Below, one piece after another: positions 12,317 through 53,914 of a stretch of DNA of 60,221 nucleotides. The position numbers were made by a program, and so were the translations under genes. Below the pieces are notes generated by a model. It was not told the DNA's origin. It did no database searches and was given only the letters and a program-made list of their open reading frames with translations. The stretch spans positions 1 to 60,221 of the forward strand of contig CAJBBX010000017.1 of the NCBI GenBank assembly GCA_903951425.1, in the 5' to 3' direction. The DNA comes from an uncultured Chthonomonas sp. (GTDB lineage Bacteria > Armatimonadota > Chthonomonadetes > Chthonomonadales > CAJBBX01). How positions within the stretch are numbered: the first letter of the stretch is position 1; each line of letters opens with the position of its first letter.

Positions 12317-12534
12317 CGGTCGCTCCCTGCGCTGCGGTCTCGCGCCAGGCCCGCGGGCGGCGCTGCAGCCACTGCGGCCAGATTCGCCGCCAATGCGCCC
12401 GACTCCTTTGCCGGCCACGGGCGATAGGGCCGGGCGTGGCTGGGATAGCCCATATAATGGGATATACAGCGAAGCGTGGACGCTGCCGTGCAGGTCTGGT
12501 CCCGCGTGAGCACCAGAAGGGCGGAGTCGACCTC

Positions 12535-15500: not shown

Positions 15501-15885
15501 AACGGGCATTCGCATCATCCGGGGCGAGTTCCCCGGCGACGGCGGGTACATGGCTTCCGCCAACACCGGCAAGCTGACCGTGACAGCGGGTGACCTCTAC
15601 ATCTGGCCCTACGTTCGCAGCGGCAAGGTTGGGACCGCCCATCCGCTCCGGGCTTACGTACGAAGCCTGCCGGACTACGTAATCCAGCCCGGCAAGTCCA
15701 TCACGTTCAAGGTGAACGGTTCAACCATCGGATCCGCGGCGGTTGCCGCCGACGGCTGGGCTGCGGTGACCTGGGCAATACCCCCGGGCGAGCCTTCAGG
15801 TGGCCACACGGCCAATGCCGAGTTCGCGGGAGACGCGTGGTATGCAGGGGTCACTGCAAACACTACGTTCAATGTCGTGCCGTAG
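12535..15885 (+). CDS. Secreted RCC1-repeat protein: 14 repeats plus four Ig-like domains
   Basis: The 1116-residue protein has a signal peptide (MITRALYAAVVAACMAGRASA). Residues about 28-725 contain 14 repeats of the RCC1 type with the core WGxNxxGQLGDG. Since RCC1 propellers have seven blades, this is probably two propellers in tandem. Residues about 730-1116 form four Ig-like domains of some 95 residues, each with VTFKVNGSxVGSA-like strands and a FxGDxxY end motif. Such domains occur in large adhesins and surface proteins. GGAG lies ahead of ATG 12535; earlier in-frame starts lack a signal peptide. The following gene is a shorter paralogue, 14 bases away. Confidence 0.85.
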   Translation: MITRALYAAVVAACMAGRASAQPQAGGQPVTWGAGTYGQLGSGLTSDRLSPGDTIRLPKCTAAASGVYHTLFLTSDGRVLAAGHNEYGQLGDGSALGSSRAAPLAVPGITNAVAVAAGAYHSLALLADGTVMAWGYNAHGQLGDGTTTDRATPTPASGLASVTHLAAGGHHSVAVLSGGAVYTWGYNADGQVGNGTTTDRPNPGPVVGLTGVVAVAAGAAHTLALKSDGAMRAWGHNGHGQLGDGSTTNASTPVAVSGITAAVSIGAGSNHSLAVLVAGAVQAWGSNSGGQLGDGSTTSRPLPVAALGITTATAVAAGEAHSAARLSNGTVATWGADTNGVLGNGAGGDTLVPQPVPGLSGIASICSSNMQCHAVTAGGAAFGWGSDAYGSLGEGGSNFRSAPAPICALDSAVQVAMGEYHTLAVREDGALFAWGHNGFGQLGDGTLDSSVSPRYIGDLPPVTAVAAGSHHSVLLINDGTLRTFGYGGDGQLGHGLMVDSSVPVVVPGITTATQVSASVGASYALLADGTVWAWGDNTYGQLGDPSVLLSTAMPVAVVGLSGVKAIAAGPYHVLALLTNGTVVAWGLNGDGQLGDGGYTTSYVPVPVLGLTNVVGIAAGLHHSLAVLADGTVRAWGYNGDGQLGDGTGVSSPTPVVVTGLFSVTAVASRHKTSLALHADGEVSAWGYNGSGQIGDGTTTQYLAPVWVPDLRHVTAVASSTLGGIAISHWPSTTLTVPSKSGARGQSITLGAVLLAFTGPVVGRTVTFKVNGSAVGSAVTDGAGIAGLAYTIPDALPTDNAIVARFVGDDEYKGSAGAGTLTLPQRVPTSVFTVDRTGIITTTVALKGYLKRTSDNAWLVAKTVGFTVAGSNVGSATTDAGGQAILNYVITTSAGPHTIGASFAGDAQYQPSSSSATLTATTTNTKVYVVDRTAKIKTYVVLKSYLYTPTNAIIPGKPMTLKLDGTVLGSGTTNASGYYQFGYTVAEGSGTGIRIIRGEFPGDGGYMASANTGKLTVTAGDLYIWPYVRSGKVGTAHPLRAYVRSLPDYVIQPGKSITFKVNGSTIGSAAVAADGWAAVTWAIPPGEPSGGHTANAEFAGDAWYAGVTANTTFNVVP

Positions 15886-15899
15886 ACCAGGAGATCACG

Positions 15900-38964: not shown

Positions 38965-40989
38965 CTACTTTCCTTCCAGCAGGACGTAGTCCAGGCCGAA
39001 CATGTAGCTCTTAACCGCCTTGGTGTTGGCGCCGGTGATCTCCACTGTGAACCTGTGAGCGCCGGCCGTTAGCTCGACGTCACCCAGGACCTGCTCGCCG
39101 GTGGGCGCGACGCCCTCGTTGAAGAAGTCGGTCTCGCCGCCCAGGGGCTTGCCGTCCAGGCTGAAGCGCATGATGCCGTAGTCGATGGCCTTGGTGAAGT
39201 TGGCCTTGACGGTGTACTTGCCGGCCTTGGCGGCGGTGACCTCCACCGTCAGCTTGTCGCCGGGCTTGGCCTCGGTCCACCAGAGCTGCTTGTCGCCGCT
39301 GTAGTCCGGCCCGAAGCCGCCCATGTCCTGCGGCTCGGTCTTGCCGGCGGTGCGCTCGACGATGCGGATGGTCTCGCCCTCGGTGGCGCCCTTCACCTTC
39401 TTCGGCTCGGGCACGGTCAGGTCGAAGTAGCCCAGGCGCTGGTCCAGCGGCGCGGCCTGGTAGGGGTCGGTCCCGCCCGGAGCCAGGTAGAAGTAGACCG
39501 TGGCGGCGTGGTTCTGGGGCAGTTTGTTCGGGAAGTACTTCTCGATGCTGCCGAAGAAGGATGTCTGGAACGGCACGTTGTCGGTGATCTGCCACCGGTT
39601 CACTGAGGCATGGCCGCGGTTGTTGCCGCTGTTGAAGGGCTGGTTGTGGTAGGCGTTATAGAAGAGGGCCGGGTTGCACCAGGCGTAGCCGAAGTAGTCC
39701 TCGGAGCCGGTGCCGAAGGTGGATGGGAACTTCTCGCCGTCGACGTAGAAGAGCTCGTCGCCCTCGCCCCACCAGCCGCCGCGCGGGTTCCAGACGTGGA
39801 GCTGCACGCCGCACCAGCGGCCCTTGCCCTGGGCCTGCAGCATGGTCCACTCGATGCCGCGCTCGGGCTCGGCGGGCAGCAGGGCGTCGCGGTGCCACTT
39901 GGCGTGGAAGCGCAGGTACTCACTTGCGGGCCTCTCCAGCGGCGCGTGCGTGACGGAGGCCGTGATGGCGCGCGCCGTCGGCCCGTCGTTGACGATCTCG
40001 ACCTTCGCGCTCTTGCCGAACGGCATGTACCAGAAGCTGTAGTAGCCCTCCTCGGTCATGCCCAGCGGTAGCGACTTGTAGAGATTGACGCCCGGCGCGG
40101 TGCCGAAGAAGTCGCCCAGCGGCGACCAGACCGCCGGCTCCTTGTCGCCGTCGAAGGTGATCTTCAGGGCCAGCTCGCGGAGGGCCATGATCTGGTCCTT
40201 GCGGTCGGCAAGGTCCACCTTGATGCGGAGCGCGGTGATGGCGCGGGCGCCTCGGATGTCGGCCAGCCGCACGCTCTTGCCGGGCTGTGCCTTCACGCGG
40301 GACTTGACGGTCCGCTCGCCCTTGCGGAGGCCGGCGGGGTCGGAGCCCAGGCCGTCGCGAAGCTGCAGGTCGGCCGCGGCCAGGGCCTCCATCTCCTCGG
40401 CGGTGAGTGTGCGCTTGAAGGTGGGCACCTTGGCCGCCTTGGGCAGGGCCTCGTAGGTGAACTGGTAGTAGGCGCCCCAGTCAGGGTCGGCCGTGATCTT
40501 GCAGGACTTCTGGAACGGGATCGGCACGTAGCAGTTCTTGCCGCTCGCGGCGTCATGCACGAGCGCCGGGGTGTTGAAGGGCAGGTGCTTGCCGTCGAAC
40601 CACTGCTCGAAGGGCAGGTCGATGGCCGGCTCCGTTGCGCCGTCCAGATAGACGCGGACATGGCCCTTGGTGGGCATGGCGGACCAGGTGCGCCAGATGA
40701 TGCCGGGCCCCTCGAGCTCGGCCATGACGACCTTGCCGCCCTCGCGCCGGATGATGCCGCCGCCGTCGCCGTTGGCATCCCACGCGATGTACTTACCCGC
40801 GACCTCGTCGTACTTGCTGGCGCGATCGTAGCTGGAGGCCTGGGCGCACTTGACGCCGGGCTGCGGCGGGAGCGCCAGAGCCTGCAGATCGGTCAGCTTC
40901 TTAACAAGGTCGACGTAAGTGTAGGTCTGTGCGTTGGCCGTGGCGCAGGCCAGCACGAGGAGAAGCGCCAGGGCTCTTCCAACTCGCAT
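38965..40989 (-). CDS. Secreted DUF2961 / GH172-family glycosidase
   Basis: The 674-residue protein has a signal peptide (ALALLLVLACATANA) and the DUF2961 core: GPGIIWRTWS, LPFEQWFDG, FWYMPFGKSAKVEIVNDG, and FGTGSEDYFGYAWCNP. DUF2961 is glycoside hydrolase family 172, whose known members act on D-fructofuranosyl or D-arabinofuranosyl linkages. A C-terminal beta-sandwich (about 560-672) looks like a carbohydrate-binding module. GGAGGAA precedes ATG 40989. It is followed on the same strand by the Hsp70 operon after 250 bases, with no evident link. Confidence 0.85.
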   Translation of the reverse strand: MRVGRALALLLVLACATANAQTYTYVDLVKKLTDLQALALPPQPGVKCAQASSYDRASKYDEVAGKYIAWDANGDGGGIIRREGGKVVMAELEGPGIIWRTWSAMPTKGHVRVYLDGATEPAIDLPFEQWFDGKHLPFNTPALVHDAASGKNCYVPIPFQKSCKITADPDWGAYYQFTYEALPKAAKVPTFKRTLTAEEMEALAAADLQLRDGLGSDPAGLRKGERTVKSRVKAQPGKSVRLADIRGARAITALRIKVDLADRKDQIMALRELALKITFDGDKEPAVWSPLGDFFGTAPGVNLYKSLPLGMTEEGYYSFWYMPFGKSAKVEIVNDGPTARAITASVTHAPLERPASEYLRFHAKWHRDALLPAEPERGIEWTMLQAQGKGRWCGVQLHVWNPRGGWWGEGDELFYVDGEKFPSTFGTGSEDYFGYAWCNPALFYNAYHNQPFNSGNNRGHASVNRWQITDNVPFQTSFFGSIEKYFPNKLPQNHAATVYFYLAPGGTDPYQAAPLDQRLGYFDLTVPEPKKVKGATEGETIRIVERTAGKTEPQDMGGFGPDYSGDKQLWWTEAKPGDKLTVEVTAAKAGKYTVKANFTKAIDYGIMRFSLDGKPLGGETDFFNEGVAPTGEQVLGDVELTAGAHRFTVEITGANTKAVKSYMFGLDYVLLEGK

Positions 40990-41043: not shown

Positions 41044-43206
41044 TTACGGTCGCTTGCGGCCCAGCGTGCGCTCGAAGAAGACGGTCATGTGCGTGTAGAG
41101 GTAGAGATGCCGGTCCTCGATCCCGTGGTGCTTGCCGGGGTAGATCATGAGCTCGCAGGGCTTCCCTGCGTCGTGCATGGCCGTGAGCATCCGCGCCGTG
41201 TTCTGCCAGTGTACATTGTCGTCCATCGTCCCGTGCATGAGGAGCAACCGGCCCGTCACGTCGGCGGCGAAGTGGACCGGCGCCCCCTCGCGGTAGCCAT
41301 CGGGGTTCTCGGCCGGCGTGGTCATATACCTTTCAGTATAGATGGTGTCGTAGAGCCTGTAGTCGGTCACCGGAGCCACCGCCACCGCGGCCTTGAAGGC
41401 GTTGCCGCCCTTGACCATGCACATGCAGGCCATGTAGCCGCCGTAGCTCCAGCCCCAGATGCCGATGCGCCCGGGGTCGATGCCCGGTTGCGCGGCCAGC
41501 CAGCGCGCGGCGCCGACCTGGTCCGCGGTCTCCAACCGCCCCAGCTTCCTCGAGACGGCCTTCCGGAAGGCCCTGCCGCGGAAGCCGGCTCCCCGGTTGT
41601 CAACGAGCAGGATGACGTAGCCCCTGCAGGCCATCATCTGGTGCCAGAGGCCGCCCTTCCCGCCCCACTGGTCGGTGGTAACCTGCGAGCCCGGACCGCC
41701 ATAGACGTGCATGATGGCCGGGTGCGGCCGCGACGGGTCGAAGTTGCGCGGCTTCAGCATCCGCGCGTGGAGGCTCACGCCCTCGTCTGTCGTGATCTCC
41801 AGTAGCTCCCACCGCTCGTCGGCCCGGTCCGGTGACAGCGCGTAGGAGCGGAGGGCAGGCAGGGGATCGGTCACGAGGCTCAGCGGCTCGACGCCCGGCG
41901 TGCGCAGGTCCCATTCAGTGGGGTGGTGCAGGTCGCTCCACGTGTGGACCCAGGCCCCGCCCTTCGGCGCGCAGAGGGCGCCGTGGCGGCCCGCGCCTCC
42001 CGCCAGCACCGTGTGCGGCCCGCTGGCCGGCGGCACGCTGCAGACCGACCGGCAGCGCGCATCGGGCAGCGCCGCCACGAAGACCACATCGCCCTGGTCG
42101 GGACGGACGGCTGAGATCGATTCGACATCGAACTCGCCGCAGGTGATCGCCACGGGCTCCCCGCCATCGAGGCTGCAGCGGTAGAGGTGCGTCCAGCCGC
42201 TCCGGTCCGACATCCAGAGGAACTCGCGCGTCTCGCCCACGAACCTGACCGTGGTGGAGCTGTCCACCCAGGCCTCGTCGGCCTCCTCCAGCACGACGCG
42301 CGAGGCGCCCGTGGCCGGGTCGGCGGCGAGGAGCACCAGGCGCGTCTGGAGCCGAGGCAGCCACTGCACCAAGAGGTCGCGGCCGTCGGGCGACCACTGC
42401 ACTCCGGAGATCATATGGTCGCCGGAGCCCGCCGGGCTCGTGTCGACCCACGTCACCTCGCCTCCCGCGAGGTCGATGACGCCCACGCGGGTCTCGGGGT
42501 TGGGGTCGCCGGCCTTTGGGTATCGCGTCATGCGCGGCTCGGCGTGCGGCTCCTCGTAGCGGGGAAGGACGTACTCGGGCACGGCGGCCTCGTCCTGGCG
42601 GCAGAAGGCGATCCTACCGCCGTCGGGCGACCACCACCATGCCTTGGCCAGGCCCAGCTCCTCCTCGTAGACCCAGCCGCAACGTCCGTTGTACACGGCC
42701 CCGCCGCCATCATGTGTCAACCGCGTCTCCGCACCGGTGGCGACATCGATGGTCCAGAGGTCCTCGTCGCGCACGACGCCCAGCTTCGATCCATCGGGCG
42801 AGAGCTCGGGATGGCGGAGTTCGCCGGTGGCCGGGCTCAGCCTCCGCAGCGTCAGGGCCTCGGTATCGAACAGGAGGATGCGTCCGCTGCCCTTGAAGCG
42901 GGCGGGTGCATCGGCGGTGAGCAGGAGGCGCCGACCGTCCTGCGACCAGCGGATGGCGTGGATCGGCACGGGCTTCTCGTCGTCGGGCTCCTTCACCAGC
43001 GCCGGGTCGAACAGGGGCGCCCTGTCGCCGGTGGCCGGGTCCAGCGCCCACACGGTGGCTGCCTCGGTTCCCGGGTACTTGTCCAGGTAGGTGAGCTTGG
43101 AGCCGTCGGGTAGCCAGACGGGCCCGCGCAGCGTCTTCTCGGTGGGCGCAGAGGCGCCGAAGATGGCATCCAACGTGAGGCGACGACGCCCGGGGCGCGT
43201 TGACAA
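41044..43206 (-). CDS. S9 family dipeptidyl peptidase IV-like serine peptidase
   Basis: The 720-residue protein has the two-part S9B layout: an N-terminal beta-propeller (WLPDGSKLTYL, WSPDGGRIAFCRQDE) and a C-terminal alpha/beta hydrolase domain. The catalytic triad can be placed as Ser587 in GWSYGG, Asp662 in GTMDDNVHW and His694 in KHHGI. There is no signal peptide, so it should act in the cytoplasm on short proline- or alanine-containing peptides. The start is TTG 43206 with a strong GGGGAGG site. It lies divergent from the plus-strand glycosidase-like cluster. Confidence 0.92.
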   Translation of the reverse strand: MSTRPGRRRLTLDAIFGASAPTEKTLRGPVWLPDGSKLTYLDKYPGTEAATVWALDPATGDRAPLFDPALVKEPDDEKPVPIHAIRWSQDGRRLLLTADAPARFKGSGRILLFDTEALTLRRLSPATGELRHPELSPDGSKLGVVRDEDLWTIDVATGAETRLTHDGGGAVYNGRCGWVYEEELGLAKAWWWSPDGGRIAFCRQDEAAVPEYVLPRYEEPHAEPRMTRYPKAGDPNPETRVGVIDLAGGEVTWVDTSPAGSGDHMISGVQWSPDGRDLLVQWLPRLQTRLVLLAADPATGASRVVLEEADEAWVDSSTTVRFVGETREFLWMSDRSGWTHLYRCSLDGGEPVAITCGEFDVESISAVRPDQGDVVFVAALPDARCRSVCSVPPASGPHTVLAGGAGRHGALCAPKGGAWVHTWSDLHHPTEWDLRTPGVEPLSLVTDPLPALRSYALSPDRADERWELLEITTDEGVSLHARMLKPRNFDPSRPHPAIMHVYGGPGSQVTTDQWGGKGGLWHQMMACRGYVILLVDNRGAGFRGRAFRKAVSRKLGRLETADQVGAARWLAAQPGIDPGRIGIWGWSYGGYMACMCMVKGGNAFKAAVAVAPVTDYRLYDTIYTERYMTTPAENPDGYREGAPVHFAADVTGRLLLMHGTMDDNVHWQNTARMLTAMHDAGKPCELMIYPGKHHGIEDRHLYLYTHMTVFFERTLGRKRP

Positions 43207-43512: not shown

Positions 43513-44973
43513 ATGGCCCGCACCATCGTCCCGTTGCTCCTTCTCGGCATGGTTGCCGCCCGCGGCTCCGGCTCACCCGTAGCGGACCCACACGCCGCCG
43601 CCCGCCTGCCGGCGCCTGAAGAGCCCAGATACCTCCTTCTCTGGAGGCCGCCGGAGGCCGTCGCAGGGATGGTCCGCAGGATAGGCGCCACAGGCGACGG
43701 CACGACGCGGCTGCTCGGCTTCGGCCTGCCGTGCTCGACCTTTGCGGCGGAGAAGCAGGTGCCGGACATGGTGCGTTCGGCGTTCGCGGCCGCTCGCCGA
43801 AACAACGTGGCCGTGATGCTGCAGTTCGACTTCCATGTGGAGTGGAGGAACCGACCCGACCTCTGGAACTGGTTCGACCCCGCGAAGCCCGGCTACAACC
43901 CGAACAACAGGGCGAACGTCGAGTGGTTCGGATGGAACGGGCCGGTGGCGCAGGTGCGGTACCTGAACTGGGGCGCCCCCGAGCGGATGGCGCCCCCCGT
44001 CTGTTTCACGAGCAAGCGCGTCCGCGCCGAGTGGCGGCGGCTGATCGGCAAGGTCATCGTGCCCGCCATACTGCCCGAGTTAGCGCAGCTTCGGCGGGAG
44101 GGCAAGGGCCGCCTCTTCGCGGGCATCCTCGTCGGCTCGGAACCCACCGTCGACAACTACCGCAAGACCGACCCCGACACCGCCAGGATGATCGACGCAG
44201 ACCGGGCGCCGCGAGGGCAACTCGGGTACCGGGCGCTACTGGACCGTGGGTACAGCGCGTCGAAGCCCCCGCCCGACATGGTCAAGGCGCTCGCGGGCAT
44301 CGTGCAGGAGACCGTCGCCTTCTGGTGCCGTGCGTTTGTAGAGGCGGGTATTTCGCCTTCGAAGCTCTACCCCCACATCCCGGCCGGCGCTGACGATGCG
44401 GTTACCTGTACGCCCGCGTGGACCGCGTTCAACCAGTGGTCGCGCCCGGGTTGGTCCACCTATGGCGTCGGCCCGCTCAGGGAGGGGTTCGGTCCGCTGT
44501 ACACGGAGCTCCGAAAGCACGGCGGCCCCGCCTGGGGCGGCGTCGAGGCCAATGTGGGTTTCCCCGGGACGCTGGCAGACTGGGAAACCTACCTGGCATG
44601 GCATTACAACCACGGCGCGGTACTGGTCGGCATCAACACCGGCGCCACCGGGACCGAACTGCCGGGCCTGCTGGAGAAGAGCGCGTTCAGCCCCGACGCC
44701 ATCGCGGCCTATCGCAAGTTCCTCTCCGGCGCCAAGCTCGTGGCCAAGCCCCTGCCGGGCGTCGACGCCACGAAGCGCATACGGGCCAAGATGGCGACGC
44801 TACAGGCGGGCTTCCAATCGTGGTTGAAGGATAGGCGCGATCCATCACCGATTGCGCGGGACGTGGAGCGCGTGCTGCCGGCGCTGCTGCAGGCCGGCAA
44901 GCTGCCCGAAGCCGAGGCGGTCATCGACGCGGCCATACGCAAGGTAGCCGACAAGGGCGGGGCGAAGCCGTGA
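43513..44973 (+). CDS. Secreted TIM-barrel-like protein, paralogue A
   Basis: The 486-residue protein has a signal peptide (MARTIVPLLLLGMVAARGSG). The rest looks like a glycosidase-type barrel: LLGFGLPCSTF, NNVAVMLQFDFHVEW, LFAGILVGSEPTVDNY, GPAWGGVEANVGF, and a helical C-terminus. I cannot assign a GH family; a catalytic Glu may be in SEPTVD or GVEAN. It shares its layout and LGYRALxxxGxSAxxPPxDM segment with the next protein. ATG 43513 with GGAGG is preferred; ATG 43480 with GAGGGG is possible. Its stop overlaps the next start (GTGA). Confidence 0.65.
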   Translation: MARTIVPLLLLGMVAARGSGSPVADPHAAARLPAPEEPRYLLLWRPPEAVAGMVRRIGATGDGTTRLLGFGLPCSTFAAEKQVPDMVRSAFAAARRNNVAVMLQFDFHVEWRNRPDLWNWFDPAKPGYNPNNRANVEWFGWNGPVAQVRYLNWGAPERMAPPVCFTSKRVRAEWRRLIGKVIVPAILPELAQLRREGKGRLFAGILVGSEPTVDNYRKTDPDTARMIDADRAPRGQLGYRALLDRGYSASKPPPDMVKALAGIVQETVAFWCRAFVEAGISPSKLYPHIPAGADDAVTCTPAWTAFNQWSRPGWSTYGVGPLREGFGPLYTELRKHGGPAWGGVEANVGFPGTLADWETYLAWHYNHGAVLVGINTGATGTELPGLLEKSAFSPDAIAAYRKFLSGAKLVAKPLPGVDATKRIRAKMATLQAGFQSWLKDRRDPSPIARDVERVLPALLQAGKLPEAEAVIDAAIRKVADKGGAKP

Positions 44974-46463
44974 GAGGGGCGGCAAGCATTGCGGGGATTG
45001 CTCCGCACACGACGCTGGCGCTCGTTGCCGCGGCGGTCATGGTCTGCCCCAACGGGGCGTGGGCAGGTTCGCTGGCCGCCGGCGGCACAGGCGCCACCGA
45101 GACCCGGTACCTCACCTTCCAGCTGATGACCGGACTGCCGGGGTACGCGGGCCCACCGCCGATGCCCGGCCGGTTCTCGCTCAGCAAGGCCCAGGTGGCG
45201 GACTTTGTTCGCAGTGTCGTCAAGGCCATCGGCACAACGGGCAATGCTCGCCATCAGCTGGGCTTCGCCGTGGGGCCCCTCTGTTTCGATATGTCCGATG
45301 TCGAGACGCGGCAGTTCATCCGCGACGCCTTTTCCGTCGCGCGGGAGGCCGATGTGGCCGTCGGCTTCCACATCGACGACTCCATGTCATGGGGACATCG
45401 CAAGGACCTATTGGCCAACCCAGACAACCTCGAGACGGCCGACTGGCGACAGCTATCCAACACCGGCAGGCGCGCGGACTGGGGCCCCACGCCCACCCGG
45501 TTCCCACCCCAGATGTGCTTCAACAGCCCCGAGGTCGTGGCCGCCGTCCGGAAGAGAGCCGCCGTCATCGGCGCCGAGATCGCGAAGGAACTGAAGGGGC
45601 TATCGGCGGCGGGCAAGGCGCACCTCTTTGCCGGTGTCATCGCCGGATGGGAGACCGGCATCGGACGCGACTTCGAAACCGGCCGGACGCTCGGGTACCG
45701 GGCGTTGCGCCATCAGGGCTTCAGTGCCGGCGAGCCGCCCAAGGACGCGGACATGGAGCGCGTGCGCGTCGTCAAGGAGTTCATGGAGCTCTGGGGCCGT
45801 TCGCTGACCGTGGCCGGCGTCCCACGGCAACGGGTCTTCTGCCACGTCGCGTTCACGGATCAGGGCCTGCGCGCCGCCGACGCCAAGTCCTCCCGCGCCG
45901 AGCGCGTGCAGTTCGCACTGCCGGAGGTCGCCTTCAGCCCAGCCTATCGCCCTGGCTTCTCAACCTACCCCGAGGGGGCAACGTTCAGGGACATCCATGC
46001 GATCCTGGCCCGGCAGGGCAGTCCCGGCTGGATATCCGCCGAGGGAACCAACGTATCGCCCACCGGGATGCCCGGCGAGCCCACGATGGAGACCTACCTG
46101 GGGCGCATGTTCAACCACGGCGCGGTATGGGTCAACCTCTTCTCGTGGGGCATGGGCGGTGAAGCCATGCGTGACAACTTCTTCCGGAAGGCGACAGAGG
46201 GCCCCGAAGCCCTCGCCGCATACGCCAGGTTCCTTCGGGGCGCGCCGTTGGCGGAGGCCGCCGGGGGCTTCACGGTGCAGGGCTTCCAGGGCAAAGTGCG
46301 TCGCATCCAGAGGGAGCTCTCTGACTGGGCCGGCAGATCGGGCAGGCAGGAGCAGCTGCGTGCGACGGCCCTGTCACAGCGGCTGGAGCAGCTAATAAAG
46401 GAGAGGCAGTGGCAGGAGGCGGACATGGTCGCCGACCAAATCCTCGGCCTGATAGCCCGCTGA
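44970..46463 (+). CDS. Secreted TIM-barrel-like protein, paralogue B
   Basis: The 497-residue protein has a signal peptide (TLALVAAAVMVCPNGAWA) and the same overall plan as the preceding protein: VAVGFHIDDSMSWG, LFAGVIAGWETGIGRDF, SPGWISAEGTNVS, FNHGAVWVNLFSWGMGG, and a helical end. The family is not recognised. The GTG start overlaps the stop of paralogue A, so both are made together. Tandem paralogues with diverged active-site regions suggest different linkages in one substrate. Confidence 0.65.
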   Translation: MRGAASIAGIAPHTTLALVAAAVMVCPNGAWAGSLAAGGTGATETRYLTFQLMTGLPGYAGPPPMPGRFSLSKAQVADFVRSVVKAIGTTGNARHQLGFAVGPLCFDMSDVETRQFIRDAFSVAREADVAVGFHIDDSMSWGHRKDLLANPDNLETADWRQLSNTGRRADWGPTPTRFPPQMCFNSPEVVAAVRKRAAVIGAEIAKELKGLSAAGKAHLFAGVIAGWETGIGRDFETGRTLGYRALRHQGFSAGEPPKDADMERVRVVKEFMELWGRSLTVAGVPRQRVFCHVAFTDQGLRAADAKSSRAERVQFALPEVAFSPAYRPGFSTYPEGATFRDIHAILARQGSPGWISAEGTNVSPTGMPGEPTMETYLGRMFNHGAVWVNLFSWGMGGEAMRDNFFRKATEGPEALAAYARFLRGAPLAEAAGGFTVQGFQGKVRRIQRELSDWAGRSGRQEQLRATALSQRLEQLIKERQWQEADMVADQILGLIAR

Positions 46464-46627
46464 GCCCCGCCGATTGACCATGCGCGGGAGTTGCTCCAGT
46501 ACCGCCTTGCGCCGGACGGTGCGCTCCCGCATTCAGGCCCTGCAAGCGTGCGGCGCAGGAGCCTCCGGCGGCGGCGTCGAACTACGGCAAACGCGCGGGA
46601 CGAACCGCGCCCATGGGAGATCGATAC

Positions 46628-47719
46628 GTGAGCCTTTCGCCTGAGATGGTCTGCGCCCTGCTCGTCGTCGCCGCGTTGCCGGCGGCCCTGGCCGGCACGC
46701 CCGACATCAAGACCGTCCGCCCCGACGGAACGCCCAACCGGGCTGCCTGGATGGCTCAGGGCGCCTTCGGGGTCATGACGCACTACCTCTTCCACCCCAG
46801 GGGCGACACGCCGGAGGAGCGCACCGCCGACCTGAACCGGACCGTGGATGCCTTCGACGTGCCGTCTTACGTCAAACAGGTCAAGGCGACCGGCGCCGAC
46901 TGGGTCATCTTCACCCTGGGCCAGACCACGGGCGCTCTCTGCAGTCCCAACCCGGTGCTGGACCCCAGGGCGCCGGGTATGACCCCGAAGCGCGACCTCG
47001 CGCTCGAGCTGGCCAAGGCGCTCCACCGGGCGGGTAAGCGCCTGATCCTATACATCCCGTCGGAACAGAACTCCGAGCAGGCCATCCAGACCGCGCTCCG
47101 GTCCGACCAGCCGGGCTACGCCGAGCGCTACTTCGAGTTCCTCAAGGCCTACTCGCTCAAGTTCGGGAAGCTGTGCGACGGCTGGTGGTTCGACTCCTGC
47201 GGCCCGCACGACGACGCCTACTGGAACGCCTGGCTAACCGCCCTGCGCGCCGGCAACCCGGACACGGCGGTGGCCTTCAGCGGCGCCGAGTTCTGCTGCG
47301 GCGGACCCGAAGGCCCGATCTGCAAGCTGGAGGACTACCACGCCGGCGAGATCCACCTGCTGGAGGAGGGGAAGATACGCCGCGACTTCCTGCCGCCCGG
47401 CGGCGACATCGTGGTGGTGGACCAGAAGCTGCGGAAGCGCGGCCAGGAGGCCCGCACCTACATGCCCGACGGCCAGTTCATCGACGGAGTGCAGTGGCAC
47501 TGCCTGTTGCCGCTGGACCTCACCTTCAACCCGGCGGTCCCCAACCAGTACTGCAACTACACCGACAAGGAGCTCTTCGGCTTCGTGGGTGCGGTGAAGT
47601 CCGTGGGCGGCGCCGTCACCATTAACGTGCCCATCGAGATCGAGACAGGCCGCATCCCCACCGACAGCCACGCCCAGCTTGTGCGCCTGGGCAAGTCGAT
47701 GAAGACGGCGGGGAAGTAG
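46628..47719 (+). CDS. Secreted GH29-like alpha-L-fucosidase
   Basis: The protein of about 363 residues has a signal peptide (EMVCALLVVAALPAALA) and GH29-like barrel strands: AWMAQGAFGVMTHYLFHP, FDVPSYVKQVKATGADWVIF and LCDGWWFDSCGP, where the Asp of WFD is the nucleophile position. It is a minimal catalytic domain without a C-terminal beta-sandwich. GH29 enzymes release alpha-L-fucose. GTG 46628 has GGGAGA at nine bases; ATG 46613 is an alternative in the same frame. It follows the paralogue pair. Confidence 0.75.
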   Translation: MSLSPEMVCALLVVAALPAALAGTPDIKTVRPDGTPNRAAWMAQGAFGVMTHYLFHPRGDTPEERTADLNRTVDAFDVPSYVKQVKATGADWVIFTLGQTTGALCSPNPVLDPRAPGMTPKRDLALELAKALHRAGKRLILYIPSEQNSEQAIQTALRSDQPGYAERYFEFLKAYSLKFGKLCDGWWFDSCGPHDDAYWNAWLTALRAGNPDTAVAFSGAEFCCGGPEGPICKLEDYHAGEIHLLEEGKIRRDFLPPGGDIVVVDQKLRKRGQEARTYMPDGQFIDGVQWHCLLPLDLTFNPAVPNQYCNYTDKELFGFVGAVKSVGGAVTINVPIEIETGRIPTDSHAQLVRLGKSMKTAGK

Positions 47720-47723
47720 GCGC

Positions 47724-49685
47724 GTGCCCCGCCACCGCCTCCTGTCTGCCGCGCTCCTGGCGCTGGCCTCGGCGCCTTCCGCGGCGGCGGCTGTAACGCT
47801 CTCCGGGATGGTGGGCGCTCAGCGGCTCTCGTTCCGGGTGACGCGGGTGGCCGACGAGGCCTCCTTCGCGGTGGCGCCTCGGGCGGCTGCGTATGTGGCG
47901 GTCACCGAGGTGCACGCGGGCGCAACGACACCGGCGCCGGTGCGGTACCTGGTCACGGGCGACGGCCTGGCGCCCTTTGAGCGGGCCTATGCCGCGCGGG
48001 GCTTCGGGCCAGTGACCTTCTTCATCCCCGTGGCGGGCGGGCGGGCGGGCGCGGTGCGAATCCGCAACCTGGCGGGAGCGGATCGCTCGCCATGCATCCT
48101 GGGCGTGCGCGGCGTGACGCGGGCCGAGATCGACGCCGCTCGGGCCGCCGACCGGTTCGCGCTCTGCGGCACGGTCATCAACCCCCTCCTCGGCATGCCG
48201 GAGGAGGAGCAGGCCCAGCGCCTGGCCACAGGCCTGCCGCCTATGCCGGGCCGCGCCGCGGGGCCGGGCTTCTCCTATGAGGTCTACTACGCGGCATGGA
48301 CACCGGAAGCCGTGCGGGCGCAGATCGTCAAGGCGCGGGACTGGGCTCGGCGGCACCGGATGAAGGCGTTGCTGGGGTTCGTCTCGTGGTGGAACGGGAC
48401 GCCGCGCCGCGTACCGGATGGCCAGGGCGGAGCCCTTGACGACCTGAAGTACCAGCAGGTCTGCTACACGCCCGGCTCCGAGCACCCGGAGAACCCCGAG
48501 CTGCGCACGCTGCTGGGGGCGCGGTACAACCGCCACTACCGGCTCTCGGTGCCCAACATCTGGAGCAACACGCCCTGGCTCACCATGAACAGCGCGACGC
48601 TCAACGCCTACCGGGCGCGGCGGATGGCCGAGGCCGTGCAGGCGCTGAAGGAGGTCTCCGGCGGCGACGCCTCGTGGGTGGCGGGCCTCTTCCTCGAGAA
48701 CGAGCCGCGCTACTGGGACACGCAGTCGACCCAGGGCACGCCGCAGTGGGCCGGAGAGCAGTGGGCCGACTTCAACCCCATGGCCGTGGCCGACGCGGCC
48801 GAGGAGGGCGTGACGCTGGACCCGGCCGACGGCATGTCGCAGGCCGAGTTGGTCTGGCTGCAGGGCAACGTGGCGCGCTACTTCCAGCAGACGGCCGACG
48901 CGGCCAACCGTGCCCTGCGCTCGGCGGGCATGGCCGGACGCGTATCGGTCTATACGCACTCATTGCAGCTTGCGGTCCTCTTCCCTTGCGGTGCGCTGAA
49001 CCAGTCCCCGGCGGACTGGGCACGGGCCTCGGGCGCGCGCACGGGCATCGAGGGCATCTGGAGCAACCTGTCGGACTTCGACCGTGTGCGCGAGTGGGGC
49101 CCTTGGTGCAACCTGAATCGCGAGGAGACCGACGGCCTGCCGCTGGAGACGCACCTCTGGGACCTGCGCGCGACCTATGCCGCGGGCGGCGAGTTCTACA
49201 ACAGCTATAACTGGCACACGCTGAAGGGCGACGGTTATCCCGGCTACGCTCGCGGCTTCGCGGCGGCGTTGCCCGTGGCGCAAGCGAACCCGCTGGAGGC
49301 GGCGCGGGCAACGGACACGGAGTTGACCATCAAGCCGCCCCAGGCGCTGCAGGCCTTCGGAGAGATGGAGGTGTCAGTGGAGGCCGCAGGCGCCGCGTCA
49401 GTCGCGCTGGAGATGGTCTCGAACGCCGGAACGACGTTTTCGGCTCGGCGCGCTCCAGCGAAGGCCGAATCCACGCGCTTCGCGTTCCCCGTGCCGGCGG
49501 AGGTTCACTGGTCCGCCACGGCGAGGCTATGCCTGCATGCTTACGACCCCAAGGGCCGCGAACTCACCACCGGAGCCCGCTTCGCCCCCGGCGCCGAGAA
49601 GGCCGTCCAGCTACGCCTGGACCTCGGCGCGAGCAGGGCGCTGAGTCTCGTAGTCGTACGACGCGGGGTGGCCGCGGCTCGGTGA
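47724..49685 (+). CDS. Secreted glycosidase-like protein, unknown family
   Basis: The 653-residue protein starts at GTG, four bases after the GH29-like gene, with a signal peptide (LLSAALLALASAPSAAAA). An N-terminal beta-rich part (about 20-150) precedes a barrel-like region with HRMKALLGFVSWWNG, SWVAGLFLENEPRYWD (possible acid/base Glu) and GIEGIWSNLSDF. A C-terminal beta domain follows. I cannot name the family; beta-galactosidase or GH5/GH42-like barrels are the nearest in feel. Part of the 43513-49685 operon. Confidence 0.6.
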   Translation: MPRHRLLSAALLALASAPSAAAAVTLSGMVGAQRLSFRVTRVADEASFAVAPRAAAYVAVTEVHAGATTPAPVRYLVTGDGLAPFERAYAARGFGPVTFFIPVAGGRAGAVRIRNLAGADRSPCILGVRGVTRAEIDAARAADRFALCGTVINPLLGMPEEEQAQRLATGLPPMPGRAAGPGFSYEVYYAAWTPEAVRAQIVKARDWARRHRMKALLGFVSWWNGTPRRVPDGQGGALDDLKYQQVCYTPGSEHPENPELRTLLGARYNRHYRLSVPNIWSNTPWLTMNSATLNAYRARRMAEAVQALKEVSGGDASWVAGLFLENEPRYWDTQSTQGTPQWAGEQWADFNPMAVADAAEEGVTLDPADGMSQAELVWLQGNVARYFQQTADAANRALRSAGMAGRVSVYTHSLQLAVLFPCGALNQSPADWARASGARTGIEGIWSNLSDFDRVREWGPWCNLNREETDGLPLETHLWDLRATYAAGGEFYNSYNWHTLKGDGYPGYARGFAAALPVAQANPLEAARATDTELTIKPPQALQAFGEMEVSVEAAGAASVALEMVSNAGTTFSARRAPAKAESTRFAFPVPAEVHWSATARLCLHAYDPKGRELTTGARFAPGAEKAVQLRLDLGASRALSLVVVRRGVAAAR

Positions 49686-49688
49686 GGC

Positions 49689-49970
49689 TTAACCCCCGAT
49701 CACCACCGTCCATGGCCGGATCTCCCAGCGCTTCACCAGCCCGTTGGCGACGTAGGGGTCGCTTGCCACGAAGGCCTCGATCGGGTCCGGGCCGTCGGTT
49801 CGCCAGATGAGTAGCGCCGTGTCGGCCGGGTCGGCGAAGGCGCCTCCGAGGAGCAGTTCGCCGCGCTCGTGGGCCGCCTGCGCCAGGGCCAGGTGCTCCG
49901 AACGAAAGGCCGGCCGGCGCTCCATGTAGTCGTCGGCCACGTGGTAGATCAGGGCGTAGAGCGCCGTCAT
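49689..49970 (-). CDS. YciI-like protein
   Basis: The 93-residue protein matches the YCII family: RPAFRSEHLALAQAAHERGELLLGG, then DPYVANGLVKRWEIRPW. These small ferredoxin-like dimers have a conserved His and Asp and mostly unknown roles. ATG 49970 overlaps the stop of the GH2 gene (ATGA) and has GGAGGAGA. It ends three bases from the convergent plus-strand gene. Confidence 0.82.
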   Translation of the reverse strand: MTALYALIYHVADDYMERRPAFRSEHLALAQAAHERGELLLGGAFADPADTALLIWRTDGPDPIEAFVASDPYVANGLVKRWEIRPWTVVIGG

Positions 49971-52900
49971 CGCTTCTCCTCCGCCGGGGCGGAGGCCCAG
50001 CGCAGCAGGTTGCGGAGCAGCCGGTCCGCGGCCGGGTGCGAGCCGAGGTTCCCGGTGATGCGCAGCGTGTTTAGCACGATCTGCCCCTTGCCCACGCGGT
50101 ATACGCTGAGCATCAGCCCCGAGGCGTAGTCCTGCGAGGCCTTGATCGCGCCCGCCACGGCTTCGGACGGCGGGTCCTGGCCCGTGAAGACCAGGTCCGG
50201 GATCACCTCGCGGTAGAAGGTCGTGTCCATGAGCCCGCCGGTGGGCAGGCCGGCAAAGATGGGGTGCGTCTTGGCCCACTCGTCCTTCAGGTAGAGCCAG
50301 CCGTGGATGCCCACGAGCGCCCCCTTGCGCTCGAGAGGCAGCCGGGCCACGGGGTCGTCGCCCACGCGGAAGGCCTCGGGCGCGAGGAAGGCCGCCGTGG
50401 CCCCCTGGCGCACGCGCTCCAGTAGCGCCTGCCACGCGGCCTCGTCAGCCGGTGCGCCTGAGCCGACGAGGATGACCTCCGACGTCCGGTCGAACGGTCT
50501 GGCCGCGCAACCGTGCGCCGCGAGCCACGCCGTCAGCTTCTCGTCGGCGCCCCAGAGGGCCACTTGCGGCGGGAGCGCGGGCATGGCGGCCGGGTTATCC
50601 AGGTCGAACCGGATGTCGCCGCCGGTGGGCGCCCCGCCCTGCTCCATGGTGGCCGTGAACCGGTAGGCTCCTGCGGGGCCGTCCACCGTGACCTCCTCGC
50701 TGAAGAAGGGCAAGGCGAGGGGCGCCTCGGCTCCGGGCGTCGAGGGCGGCACGGTGACCGTCACGGTGCGGTCAAGCAGGCGGCGCATGTCCGGCCCGAT
50801 CATCTGCAGCCGCACGGGGTAGCTACCTGCGGGCAGGGCGTCCTCGTTGGCCAGCACGGCCTCCAGCCGCGCCTTGCCGCCGCGATAGAGGTTGCGCGGC
50901 TCGGCGAAGAGGCAGAAGCGGAGCGGCGCGAAGGCCTCGTAGAAGGCGTCCGTGGAGCCGGGCTTCAGGTCGCGGAAGAGCGTGAAAATGCCCTCGCCGC
51001 AGTTCACATGGTCCATCATGCCCGTGACGTTGTGGCCGATGATCTTCGGGTTGGACCGGATCGCGTCGAGGCCCAGCCTCCGCTGGTCGGCCACCTTGGC
51101 GAGGCTGGCCGCGAAGAAGGCCTGCGGGTCGGCGAAGGTGTCGGCGAGGCTCCAGGCGGTCCAGTCGCCCATGAAGCGCCGGAGGAGGCCTGAGTAGTAG
51201 AGGGCATCCTCGGCGTCGGCGTGGCCGATCTGCTCGAAGCGCCGCGTTACGCGCCAGAGGTCCACGGCGCTACCGATGCCGTACTCGCTGAGCAGCACCG
51301 GGCCGCTCGCCGCGCCCAGCTCACGGAGCCATGCCACGTCGGCTGCGGAGTGGGGTACGTGCGGGTAGGCGTGGACGTCGCCCATGTCGGTGGCGTAGCC
51401 ACCGGGGTAGGCCATGCCGGTGGGGCCCTTGCCGGGGCCTTCGCCGCCCAGGTAGCCGTCCCAGCCCTCGGCGCCGGGGTTGCAGACGGAGCCGAAATCG
51501 CGCTGCCCATCCCAGCGCCCGCTGTTAAGCATCACCGCGCGGGTCTGGTCCAGCGACCGCACCAGCGGCAGCGAGGCGGCGGCATGGCGGAAGACGGCGT
51601 TGTCGAAGGTTTCGTTGAGCAGGCCCCAGATCACGACCGAGGGGTGGTTGCGGTCGCGCAGGATGGTCTCGCCCAGCGAGAGGTCGAACCTCGCCGCCAT
51701 CTGCGGGCCATCCTCCATGGGGTTCGACGCGGCGTGCTCCTGGTACACCATGAGGCCCATCTCGTCGCACACGTCCAGTTGCGCCCGCGTGGCGCCGCCC
51801 CAGATGAAGCGGATGCAGTTGAAGCCCATGGTCTTGAGGTAGAGCGCGTCCTTGCGGAAGAGGTCCGGCTCCATGGCGATCTGCTGGCCGACCGGGTAGG
51901 CGTTGACGGTATGCGTGGAGCGCAGGAAGAGGCGGCGGCCGTTCAGCCGGAAGGCGCTGCGCTCCAGGCGGAAGTCGCGGAAGCCGATCCGCACCGACCG
52001 CTCATCGCGCGATCGGCCCGTCGTAACGCCCACCGTGACGCGGTAGAGGAACGGGTCCCGCACATCCCAGAGCCGGTGGCGCGGCGCCTGCAGGCGAAGC
52101 GTGACAACGGACGCGCCGGGGGCGACCTGCTTCCGCGCCGCCACCCGGTCCACCGTGCAGCCCACGGCGGCGGGAGCCAACGCGGCCTCCACCGCCACCG
52201 GCGCCGATCCCGCCGCGCTGCTCGCGAGGCTCACCCGCACGTCGACGGAGCCGCTCTTCCAGTCCGGCACGGCGTAGAGGTCGGTGATGTGTATAGCGGG
52301 CGTGCAGGCCAGTTCGACCTCGCCCACCACGCCGCCGTGATTGTACGACGCCCCCGCCGAGTAGGGGATCACCTTGGCGCGGCGCGGCGTGGTGTTGAGC
52401 GTCATGCCCTCGATGGGCGTGTGCGTCGGGTTCAGGACGCGGACGGCCAGCAGATTGTCGGCTCCGGGCTTCACTGCCGCGGTGGCGTCCAGCTCAAAGG
52501 GCGTCTCGCCGCCCTCGTGTCGGCCAAGCGGCTTACCGTTGAGCCAGGCCTCGGCCAGGTAGTCCACAGCCTCGAACCGGAGTAGCGTCCGGCCGCCGGG
52601 GTGCGGGTTGGCGGGCGCGTTGAACCTCCGCCAGTACCATGCCACGCCGTGGTAGCCGGGGAAAGCCTCCTGCAGCGCGCCGGGCGCCCGTAACGCTCGG
52701 GCCTCCTTGCGGGGCGCGGCGAACCAGCGGCCGGTTCGGCCCGCGTTGTCAGGATCGGTGGCGGCCATCCACCGGCCGGAGAGGTGCAGCGTGGAGCTGA
52801 GCGTGGTGCGGCCCGGCGTCGGCATGGCGATCCTCCTCTGGCCGCACTCGGGTGCGTCGGCCCGGCCCAGCACGGCGAACCGCACGGAGCCCTGCGCCAG

Positions 52901-53914
52901 CGCCAGCGGTCCCTGCGGCGTGGGACACACGGGCTTCCAGGCGAGCGTGTAGAGCCCCGGTGCGGAGGGCATCGGCAAGGGCGCCGTGAACCCGCCGCCT
53001 CGGGTCAGCCGGGCTGTGCCCTGCCCGCCGCCGCCGGGGCCCGACAGGGCAAGCGCCACGTCGATGGCCTCCACCGCGGGAGGCACGCACTCCGGCTCCA
53101 CCGAGAGCGTCGCCCGCATCGGGAGCTTGCCTGGCCGGATGAGCCCCCAGCGCGACGGCAGCGCGCACTCCAGCCGCGCCGACCGGGCGAAGGCCTCCTG
53201 CTGCTTCCGGGGCGAGCCCACCGGGGTCAGCGGGCAGGGGCGGTCCCAGACCCGCAGCTCGGCCAACGCGCCCTTGAAGTGGCGTTGCTCCCCCGCGATG
53301 CCCAGTCCCAGCAGCATCGGCGTGGAGCTGGGCTTCAGGGGTGCGGGAGCGACGACCCGGTCCACCTGCAGGCCGTCTACATAGAACCGCATGACGCCCC
53401 GCGCCTTGACGATGGCCACGTGCTGCCACACGTCGGGCGTGAGCTGCACCGTGCGCGAGTAGACCCACGCCGTCCCCGTGCCGTAGGTGAAGTAGTAGGC
53501 GTTGTCCTTGGCGCCGTCCTGCTGCAGGGCGAAGCCGACGAACTCGGTACGGTGGTTCCCCAGGATGTCGGCGTACTTGCGCTGCCCCGGCGCGGGCCGG
53601 ACCCAGCACTCGATGGCGAAGCTGTCCGTGAGGCCCGGCAGCGTGCTGGGAGCCTCGACGTGCGCGTCGGCGCCGTCCAACGCCAGGCAGGGCCGCCCGT
53701 CGATGTTTGCCCACGCCACGGCTCCCACGGTGCGCCCGTGCAGCCCGCCGCCGCCGCTGTCCGACGCGTCCACGCCGAAGCGGTACTCCAGGACCAGCCC
53801 CGGCCGGGCGGCCGCCTGGGCCGCGCACGCGGAGGGCAAGAGCGCGGCGAGTAGGGCCAGGCCCGTCCCGCACAAGGGGACGAGCGATCGGCAGGCATCA
53901 GGACCGAAGGACAT
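49967..53914 (-). CDS. Secreted LamG-GH2 multidomain beta-glycosidase
   Basis: The 1315-residue protein has a signal peptide (LALLAALLPSACAAQA), a LamG-type jelly roll (about 40-220; FAIECWVRPAPGQRKYADIL, MRFYVDGLQV), a linker, then a GH2 core: sugar-binding domain (WYWRRFNAP, AEAWLNGKPLG), Ig-like domain, and barrel (RFIWGGATRAQLDVCDEMGL). The acid/base is Glu768 in WGLLNETFD and the nucleophile Glu877 in LLSEYGIG. A further 350 residues include a glutamine-amidotransferase-like fold near the end. GH2 members cleave beta-galactosides, glucuronides or mannosides. It is coupled to the YciI-like gene. Confidence 0.87.
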   Translation of the reverse strand: MSFGPDACRSLVPLCGTGLALLAALLPSACAAQAAARPGLVLEYRFGVDASDSGGGGLHGRTVGAVAWANIDGRPCLALDGADAHVEAPSTLPGLTDSFAIECWVRPAPGQRKYADILGNHRTEFVGFALQQDGAKDNAYYFTYGTGTAWVYSRTVQLTPDVWQHVAIVKARGVMRFYVDGLQVDRVVAPAPLKPSSTPMLLGLGIAGEQRHFKGALAELRVWDRPCPLTPVGSPRKQQEAFARSARLECALPSRWGLIRPGKLPMRATLSVEPECVPPAVEAIDVALALSGPGGGGQGTARLTRGGGFTAPLPMPSAPGLYTLAWKPVCPTPQGPLALAQGSVRFAVLGRADAPECGQRRIAMPTPGRTTLSSTLHLSGRWMAATDPDNAGRTGRWFAAPRKEARALRAPGALQEAFPGYHGVAWYWRRFNAPANPHPGGRTLLRFEAVDYLAEAWLNGKPLGRHEGGETPFELDATAAVKPGADNLLAVRVLNPTHTPIEGMTLNTTPRRAKVIPYSAGASYNHGGVVGEVELACTPAIHITDLYAVPDWKSGSVDVRVSLASSAAGSAPVAVEAALAPAAVGCTVDRVAARKQVAPGASVVTLRLQAPRHRLWDVRDPFLYRVTVGVTTGRSRDERSVRIGFRDFRLERSAFRLNGRRLFLRSTHTVNAYPVGQQIAMEPDLFRKDALYLKTMGFNCIRFIWGGATRAQLDVCDEMGLMVYQEHAASNPMEDGPQMAARFDLSLGETILRDRNHPSVVIWGLLNETFDNAVFRHAAASLPLVRSLDQTRAVMLNSGRWDGQRDFGSVCNPGAEGWDGYLGGEGPGKGPTGMAYPGGYATDMGDVHAYPHVPHSAADVAWLRELGAASGPVLLSEYGIGSAVDLWRVTRRFEQIGHADAEDALYYSGLLRRFMGDWTAWSLADTFADPQAFFAASLAKVADQRRLGLDAIRSNPKIIGHNVTGMMDHVNCGEGIFTLFRDLKPGSTDAFYEAFAPLRFCLFAEPRNLYRGGKARLEAVLANEDALPAGSYPVRLQMIGPDMRRLLDRTVTVTVPPSTPGAEAPLALPFFSEEVTVDGPAGAYRFTATMEQGGAPTGGDIRFDLDNPAAMPALPPQVALWGADEKLTAWLAAHGCAARPFDRTSEVILVGSGAPADEAAWQALLERVRQGATAAFLAPEAFRVGDDPVARLPLERKGALVGIHGWLYLKDEWAKTHPIFAGLPTGGLMDTTFYREVIPDLVFTGQDPPSEAVAGAIKASQDYASGLMLSVYRVGKGQIVLNTLRITGNLGSHPAADRLLRNLLRWASAPAEEKR

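Follow-up and report, generated by a model that had tools for sequence, protein, structure and literature searches.

The locus studied here, from a gene cluster for sugar degradation in an uncultured Armatimonadota bacterium, raises the question of whether three barrel-like proteins that carry no family name are glycosidases, what kind of glycosidase they might be, and whether they work as one unit with the fucosidase-like gene among them. The four genes lie together in the window, the whole 60,221-nucleotide stretch of DNA analysed, and are called A, B, C and D. It is likely from our results that A, B and D are exported glycosidases, probably of the retaining type, built on a clan GH-A-like (β/α)8 barrel and representing two unnamed families. 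In this model the sequence family of A and B is large and reaches across many phyla, and D falls in a second, remotely homologous one. Glycosidic bonds, which we infer to be β-linked, would probably be cleaved by a two-glutamate retaining mechanism, with C serving D as an exo-acting GH29-type α-L-fucosidase-like partner.

Four genes and two gene pairs

Genes A (43513..44973, + strand, 486 aa) and B (44970..46463, +, 497 aa) are paralogues with 29% identity over 452 positions (BLAST, E 2e-40), and are followed by C (46613..47719, +, 368 aa) and D (47724..49685, +, 653 aa). Sugar-degradation genes adjoin them on the minus strand, namely a DUF2961 gene (38965..40989; Pfam E 4.3e-73), which we take to be GH172, and a gene whose GH2 product begins with a laminin-G-like domain (49967..53914); an S9 or dipeptidyl-peptidase-IV-like peptidase (41044..43206, −) completes the context. 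All four genes are real at these coordinates, since homologues are present in other genomes and changes relative to a sister species, G001, are concentrated at codon position 3 (positions 1/2/3: A 23/21/85, B 23/21/78, C 11/8/45, D 28/10/62). The latter pattern also indicates purifying selection, and together these observations rule out spurious high-GC open reading frames. Each protein starts with a hydrophobic, signal-like stretch (best 12-residue mean 2.2–2.7), our sole indication that A, B and D may be exported.

The preliminary description treated the locus as a single operon. The A stop and the B start share four bases (GTGA), B and C are separated by 149 bases and C and D by 4. A-B is absent from G002, a genome of the same genus. 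There the segment 43284..46552, which holds A-B, is missing at the same site, with window position 43283 aligning to L213 position 11724 and 46553 to 11777, a clean absence between the S9 peptidase and C-D. The locus is therefore better described as two gene pairs than as one fixed operon, and a conserved four-gene operon is ruled out. An A-B-like pair also occurs in tandem in a Lloydbacteria contig (L144). The products of A to D may cooperate in glycan breakdown.

The GH29-like label given to C from the outset holds, since its score against Pfam Alpha_L_fucos (PF01120) passes the cut-off (26.3 against 25.2 bits); C also matches the α-L-fucosidase PDB 9pnj at E 4.8e-15. Trp192 and Asp194 are invariant (23/23 rows) and presumably form the GH29 W-x-D motif bearing the Asp nucleophile, with Asp194 (47192-47194, +) the proposed nucleophile and Glu246 (47348-47350, +), likewise conserved in all 23 rows, the candidate acid/base. 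C resembles GH29 α-L-fucosidases in the Pfam model passed and in the conserved Asp and Glu, and differs in the narrow margin of that pass, its short single-domain build and its divergence.

Sequence families, distribution and gene contexts

The earlier finding that A, B and D could be placed in no glycosidase family stands against every sequence collection searched. At E 1, Pfam and NCBIfam returned nothing for A and D and a single meaningless match each for B (E 0.17 and 0.15, respectively), and none of the three matched the Pfam models of GH42, GH35 or GH14 at E 1. Profiles A1 (A family) and A2 (D family) matched no GH42, GH35, GH14 or GH164 chain among PDB sequences at E 10, GH164 structures being present in the fold library. 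No PDB glycosidase was matched by the A or D sequence, and B entered the PDB comparison as one of the sequences in profile A1. Searches of the open literature returned no description of the A or D families, although nameless families are hard to search for, no activity report for any member, and nothing on DUF5722, one of the extra domains that a scan of 10 longer homologues turned up (dockerin in L207 and L211, PA14 with GLEYA in L192, B_lectin in L153, DUF5722 in L203).

Several weak matches were seen alongside. Against the PDB, the A profile gave three, all in the C-terminal helices (E 0.02–0.14), and the D profile three, the best to a dipeptidase (E 0.079); none were taken as relatives. 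Kinship was likewise not read into weak Pfam matches to TetR_C_16 (two of the 19 A1 members, E 0.0059) and GH71 (one of the 19, E 0.088), or into F5/8-type C domains in 4 of 21 A2 members.

A/B and D are not unrelated: as judged from sequence profiles, they are remote homologues forming two sequence families. Three comparisons gave probabilities of 96.8, 97.8 (global mode) and 96.2 (local mode, run with GH29-like controls), with E values of 2.7e-10, 4.1e-12 and 2e-9, respectively. The control comparison with the GH29-like family, another barrel family, gave a probability of only 0.9% for A (E 0.058) and 0.4% for D (E 0.16), which rejects the idea of A and D being distant offshoots of that family. 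In A-family members of other phyla, too, one segment is matched by the D profile, at E values as low as 1.8e-9. In the A-D profile alignment, A Glu345 falls two residues before D Glu467 and not on it.

A scan of 84,980 species genomes, run once under restrictive settings, recovered 146 stretches encoding A-family relatives, the best 80 of which were retained as 79 loci. The family covers about nine phyla, as judged from record titles and from bins that may be contaminated, and members beyond A's own subfamily are mostly just 22–33% identical to A. Within the Armatimonadota set of 291 genomes the D profile matched 30 and the A profile 28. Five of the latter (G023, G026, G258, G286, G287) match the C-terminal helical module only, so the A family is present in 23, two of them with fragmentary copies (G012, G250). 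D-profile scans outside Armatimonadota covered 205 distinct genomes together: 12 A-family-carrying genomes of other groups yielded five weak matches (72–86 profile positions, frames of 411–445 aa), and 194 genomes from the phylum to which G293 belongs (the genome of L147, titled Verrucomicrobia) yielded two, one of them at a place already matched. We read these matches as probable cross-matches to A-family genes, and the D family has so far been found only in Armatimonadota. For the two proteins compared, the A-family protein of L212 and D (P0004), presence on plasmids was rejected, as neither matched any of 72,556 plasmid records.

Gene contexts elsewhere offer hints of substrate. Around A-family genes the 134 nearest open reading frames (85 on the same strand, 49 opposite) were collected, and we scanned the 68 same-strand frames of 200–1100 aa that lay no more than 300 bases away. 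GH92 appears in only 5 of these 68, a raw count to which related species probably contribute, and its carriers confirmed one by one are the loci of Proteiniphilum L212 (SusD, DUF4959/5126/5000, DUF4998, GH92) and L178 (DUF3823, GH106, GH92). GH38 accompanies the family in L190, and a sulfatase and a sugar transporter in L172; the neighbour families considered are the top 25 of 90. Where A-family genes adjoin α-mannosidases this suggests a mannose-containing glycan as the target, not necessarily so in the window. The fucosylated or arabinogalactan substrates first proposed for the locus find nothing specific in their favour beyond the GH29-like neighbour.

That A/B and D constitute new CAZy families is plausible but unproven, as it is by Pfam, NCBIfam and PDB sequences that they are set apart. 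A rather less likely alternative is that A, B and D fall in CAZy families already created that have neither a Pfam model nor a solved structure, for example GH195 or other recent clan GH-A-like families. CAZy grows continually, with GH184, GH186, GH189, GH191 and GH193–GH195 among its additions, and GH195, like some A-family genes, has GH92 and sulfatases for neighbours (PMC13063451). GH195 is described as distantly related to GH99 (PMC13063451), whereas the A profile found no GH99 chain in PDB sequences at E 10. GH99 is also missing from the 50 best rows of either fold list for A, an absence that excludes nothing, and neither A1 nor A2 matched any PDB glycosidase chain by sequence.

Predicted folds and a conserved glutamate pair

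The glycosidase-type barrel look noted from the sequence is borne out by the predicted structures of A and D. In the A model (pLDDT 82.7, pTM 0.78) the N-terminal hydrophobic stretch precedes a (β/α)8 barrel with its eight strands in order (~34–416) and a C-terminal helical module (~417–480). The D model (pLDDT 90.6, pTM 0.91), with domains named from its strand pattern, has a barrel (146–521) flanked by N-terminal (~22–131) and C-terminal (~525–633) β-sandwiches. By homology, B is expected to share the barrel of A. The sandwiches of D and the helical module of A and B would be accessory parts.

In second-look structural alignments the nearest solved folds to A are GH42/GH35 β-galactosidases (Z 21.8, rmsd 3.5 over 308, 10% identity), with β-amylase also listed (Z 20.6). 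For D, β-amylase comes first (Z 23.7, rmsd 3.2 over 314, ~10% identity), and GH42, GH35 and GH164 (Z 20.2) are on the same list. The ranking by Foldseek is less clear. It placed GH35 first for A, where matches with E ≤0.001 include the non-glycosidase barrels D-psicose 3-epimerase, IspG and pyridoxine 5'-phosphate synthase, and placed GH66 glucanotransferase/dextranase first for D (E 9.5e-12, TM 0.23); TM-scores by query length for the two are only 0.20–0.43.

A pair of acidic residues on strands 4 and 7, set beforehand as a check, is kept in A, B and D, with strand positions in A and D assigned by strand count on the predicted models. In A, Glu210 (44140..44142, +), the proposed acid/base, lies just past strand 4 (202–207) and is E in 115/115 rows, and Glu345 (44545..44547, +), the proposed nucleophile, lies in strand 7 (341–347) and is E in 113/115 with one gap and one D. 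His288 (44374..44376, +), just past strand 5 (285–287), is near-invariant (113/115). These rows combine 27 of A4 with 88 open reading frames at E 1e-30 or better, and as eight are the same gene taken twice with different trimming they represent at most 107 distinct genes. BLAST alignment gives B Glu228 (AGWETGIG; 45651..45653, +) and Glu358 (WISAEGTN; 46041..46043, +) as the equivalents of A Glu210 and Glu345. The position of the former follows from the next codon checked, Thr229, with its context, and the codon of the latter was itself checked, as were those of the A and D glutamates and of A His288. In D the proposed acid/base Glu327 (LENEPRYW; 48702..48704, +) lies just past strand 4 (319–324) and is E in 32/33 rows, and the proposed nucleophile Glu467 (NREETDG; 49122..49124, +), at the end of strand 7 (461–467), is E in 32/33 and D in one.

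Such conservation bears on whether A, B and D might be non-catalytic carbohydrate-binding barrels, that is, glycosidase-derived lectins or surface proteins. Both glutamates are gone from L035, a homologue of D (E to G, E to D), and in same-genus G001 the B barrel has 42 other bases in place of 349 in the window, so that some copies may be inactive; the L192 homologue bears adhesin-like PA14/GLEYA domains. However, binding alone would not require the glutamates to be kept in 115/115 and 113/115 rows at 22–33% identity, and we judge a non-catalytic role improbable.

If A, B and D are glycosidases, their clan and stereochemistry can be addressed in part. Both the clan GH-A barrel and its glutamate pair, one at the end of strand 4 and one on strand 7, are found in the predicted models of A (Glu210/Glu345) and D (Glu327/Glu467). 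The Asn that directly precedes the strand-4 Glu, usual but not universal in clan GH-A, is not kept: the A family has W in 72, S in 15, H in 14 and N in 3 of 115 rows, and the D family has N in only 18/33, which is why we write clan GH-A-like and stop short of full membership. Retention is no more than probable, as β-amylase, the best fold match of D, is an inverting enzyme. The same two strand positions could thus provide a general acid and a general base, as in β-amylase, and the rarity of Asn in the A family and the presence of β-amylase on both second-look lists (at the top for D) fit such an inverting reaction. We consider it unlikely, given that GH42, GH35 and GH164, all retaining, lie within ~1 to 3.5 Z of β-amylase for D and that GH42 and GH35 come first for A. 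Retaining catalysis through the two glutamates remains our preferred reading.

A broader proposal, which we offer tentatively and below even chances, is that two glycoside hydrolase families have gone unrecognised, that of A and the Armatimonadota one of D, and that together they make up a new branch within the clan GH-A superfamily. Enzymes of the A family would be in wide, overlooked use across many phyla, in some of which they would work on mannose-rich glycans alongside α-mannosidases and sulfatases. A-B would be a two-gene module, gained and lost as a unit, whose diverged barrels act together. If enzymatic, these families would give a function to many genes now without a domain name (146 stretches in 84,980 species genomes), among them a member of a Bacteroidota SusD/GH92 locus and some dockerin-bearing proteins. 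A missing step of glycan breakdown would become testable in Verrucomicrobiota, Planctomycetota, Bacteroidota and Armatimonadota, with exact residues to mutate and named strains at hand (Proteiniphilum acetatigenes DSM 18083, Parapedobacter defluvii CGMCC 1.15342).

Comparison with known glycosidases

A is closest in architecture to the GH42/GH35 β-galactosidases, which likewise carry their second catalytic Glu on strand 7: the (β/α)8 barrel, a Glu past strand 4 and a Glu on strand 7 are shared at Z ~21–22. It differs in its ~10% identity, the lack of a Pfam or PDB sequence match, the rarity of Asn before the first Glu (3/115) and its other accessory domains. D resembles the GH14 β-amylases, whose two Glu also lie on strands 4 and 7, and they are its best second-look fold match, but identity is again ~10%, there is no sequence match, and D has an N-terminal β-sandwich. 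With GH66 dextranase and cycloisomaltooligosaccharide glucanotransferase, its first Foldseek rows, D shares the sandwich-barrel-sandwich order typical of that family, unlike them by sequence (no match), by TM (0.23) and by their absence from the 50 best second-look rows. GH164 β-mannosidase, a clan GH-A enzyme without a sequence match to D, is similar in fold (Z 20.2), and its link to mannose fits some A-family contexts. The GH195 endo-α-1,3-mannanase, compared by description, is reported to be related to GH99 and not to GH42/GH35-like barrels, and shares with some A-family loci a gene context of GH92 and sulfatases (PMC13063451).

Two modules in the gene arrangement

The proteins first noted at this locus are real and were largely read correctly; beyond that description, our analysis places A, B and D in one superfamily, locates their likely catalytic pair, finds the A family to be widespread and divides the supposed operon into two modules. 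The genes A (43513-44973, 486 aa), B (44970-46463, 497 aa), C (46613-47719, 368 aa) and D (47724-49685, 653 aa) lie in direct succession on the + strand of a contig from a 6.08 Mb assembly, and all four proteins open with a hydrophobic, signal-peptide-like stretch. The paralogues A and B overlap by GTGA, C and D are spaced by 4 bases, and 149 bases separate B from C. Sugar-degradation genes are abundant around them, and the region includes a DUF2961 protein (GH172), a GH2 protein with a laminin-G-like domain, a GH106-like protein scoring under the Pfam cut-off, a pectate-lyase-like protein and an NPCBM protein. Two neighbouring genes at 12436-17942 (1149 and 701 aa) encode mostly RCC1-like repeats with a C-terminal bacterial Ig-like domain.

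The four genes had been described as an operon, a reading replaced here by two modules, A-B and C-D, on comparison with two sister species of the same genus (genomes G001 and G002). In G002, the match running past the S9 peptidase gene (to 43283) and the match starting before C (from 46553) are separated by 52 bases, so A-B is missing there and its surroundings are intact. In G001 the S9 gene is likewise followed by A-B, and C-D sits on a different contig. Different genes lie downstream of A-B in G001, among them one for a 439-aa protein (L215 12049-13368) with a GH42 match (E 7e-9), which is one of several candidate glycosidases in this variable locus. Between G001 C and D is an extra 495-aa ORF on the - strand (L214 4596-6083), whose C-terminal half we take by eye to be ImmA/IrrE-type-peptidase-like. 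Within G001 B, 349 window bases in the first part of the barrel (45080-45428) are swapped for 42 others (L215 10870-10913), which may reflect decay or an assembly error. Differences from the sister species across A-D fall mostly at third codon positions, indicating purifying selection on the proteins. The A/B duplication is old, given that B is 42–45% identical to B-like genes elsewhere against 29% to A. A Lloydbacteria contig (L144) likewise has a B-like gene (43%) in tandem with an A-like one (40%), which indicates that their association goes back some way.

Sequence families and their distribution

In the sequence libraries covered, A, B and D have no assignable GH family, as first proposed: neither Pfam nor NCBIfam names any of them, and PDB sequences yielded nothing meaningful for A or D, alone or as profiles of the A family (homologues of A and B) and the D family. 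No shared barrel family emerged when alignment members of both families were scanned individually, with a weak GH71 match in one of 19 A-family members (E 0.088). BLAST detected no significant similarity between A and D. Profile alignment of A with D gave probabilities of 96.8, 97.8 (global mode) and 96.2 (local mode), a control in the same local-mode run, against the GH29-like family of C, giving 0.9 for A and 0.4 for D. One segment of ~50–110 positions in A-family proteins from other phyla is matched by the D profile as well. These profile matches argue that A/B and D are two families within a single superfamily. The GH29-like assignment of C is upheld by its model score and by D194 and E246, both present in 23/23 rows, from which we infer a divergent GH29 member; its closest chain by sequence is the alpha-L-fucosidase 9pnj (E 4.8e-15). 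A and B share a C-terminal helical module (A residues ~417-480; 44761-44952) that recurs in other proteins (L127-L131), including two CotH-kinase proteins (L129, L130): an accessory module of wider occurrence that Pfam does not name.

Screening 84,980 species genomes for two short peptide patterns recovered 146 stretches related to A, and on this evidence the A family is widespread. The best 80 of the 146 (79 loci) carry record titles from Armatimonadetes, Planctomycetes, Verrucomicrobia, Lentisphaerae, Bacteroidetes, Ignavibacteriales, Hydrogenedentes, Myxococcales, Paenibacillus, several Patescibacteria and an Aenigmatarchaeote, most sources being metagenome bins with possible contamination; named strains are Paenibacillus sp. 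P25, Parapedobacter defluvii and Proteiniphilum acetatigenes. Among 291 Armatimonadota genomes, the A profile matches 28, of which 23 match beyond the C-terminal module, and the D profile matches 30. Across 205 genomes beyond this set, all D-profile matches are short and look like cross-hits to A-family genes.

Neighbourhoods and fusions of the A family

Close same-strand neighbours of A-family genes (n = 68) include GH92 (5), sulfatase (4) and GH97 (2). The Proteiniphilum acetatigenes locus runs SusD, DUF4959/5126/5000, DUF4998 with an F5/8 domain, A family and GH92; Parapedobacter (L161) carries two A-family genes together with SusD, DUF3823, a BACON-like protein and a GDSL lipase. Locus L178 reads DUF3823, A family, GH106, A family, GH92, a planctomycete locus (L172) combines four A-family genes with a sulfatase and a sugar transporter, and in Victivallis (L190) GH38 lies immediately upstream. 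Some A-family genes have unrelated neighbours, such as DUF2339 (L136), FtsX (L142) and queuine tRNA-ribosyltransferase (L140). Some A-family proteins are fused to dockerin, PA14/GLEYA, B_lectin or DUF5722, and together these contexts and fusions fit extracellular glycan degradation. On raw counts of neighbours, they also hint at mannose-containing glycans as substrate in some lineages; no alpha-mannosidase was found among the subset of window proteins scanned. The barrel fused to DUF5722 (L203 2508-4946) suggests that DUF5722 too is a glycan-active domain, one that no paper in the literature searched mentions.

Predicted fold and candidate active site

AlphaFold2 models were obtained for A (27 sequences; pLDDT 82.7, pTM 0.78) and D (33 sequences; pLDDT 90.6, pTM 0.91). 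The anticipated acidic pair on strands 4 and 7 is present in both. In A, E210 lies just past strand 4 (202-207; E in 115/115 rows) and E345 within strand 7 (341-347; 113/115), the rows representing at most 107 distinct genes; E137 and H288 are near-invariant (113/115 each). In D, E327 lies just past strand 4 (319-324) and E467 at the end of strand 7 (461-467), each kept in 32/33 rows. These glutamates are likely the catalytic pair, the first as acid/base and the second as nucleophile. Two points count against this: the Asn that usually precedes the strand-4 Glu is seldom seen in the A family, and at the second Glu A and D align with an offset of two residues. A D-family homologue (L035 883-3579, genome G003) carries G and D, respectively, in place of the two glutamates and stands out as a candidate inactive member.

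Foldseek ranks GH35 first for A, with non-glycosidase barrels in the same list, and GH66 then GH35 for D, with TM-scores of only 0.20–0.43. By a separate structural alignment, in which rows less than 1 Z apart are a tie and a common fold is no proof of function, A is closest to beta-galactosidases (5e9a, Z 21.8, rmsd 3.5 over 308; GH35 7kmn, Z 21.3) and D to beta-amylase 3voc (Z 23.7, rmsd 3.2 over 314), followed by GH42 (Z 22.5), GH35 (Z 22.2) and GH164 (Z 20.2). It is the conserved strand-4 and strand-7 glutamates that would tie this glycosidase-like fold to chemistry.
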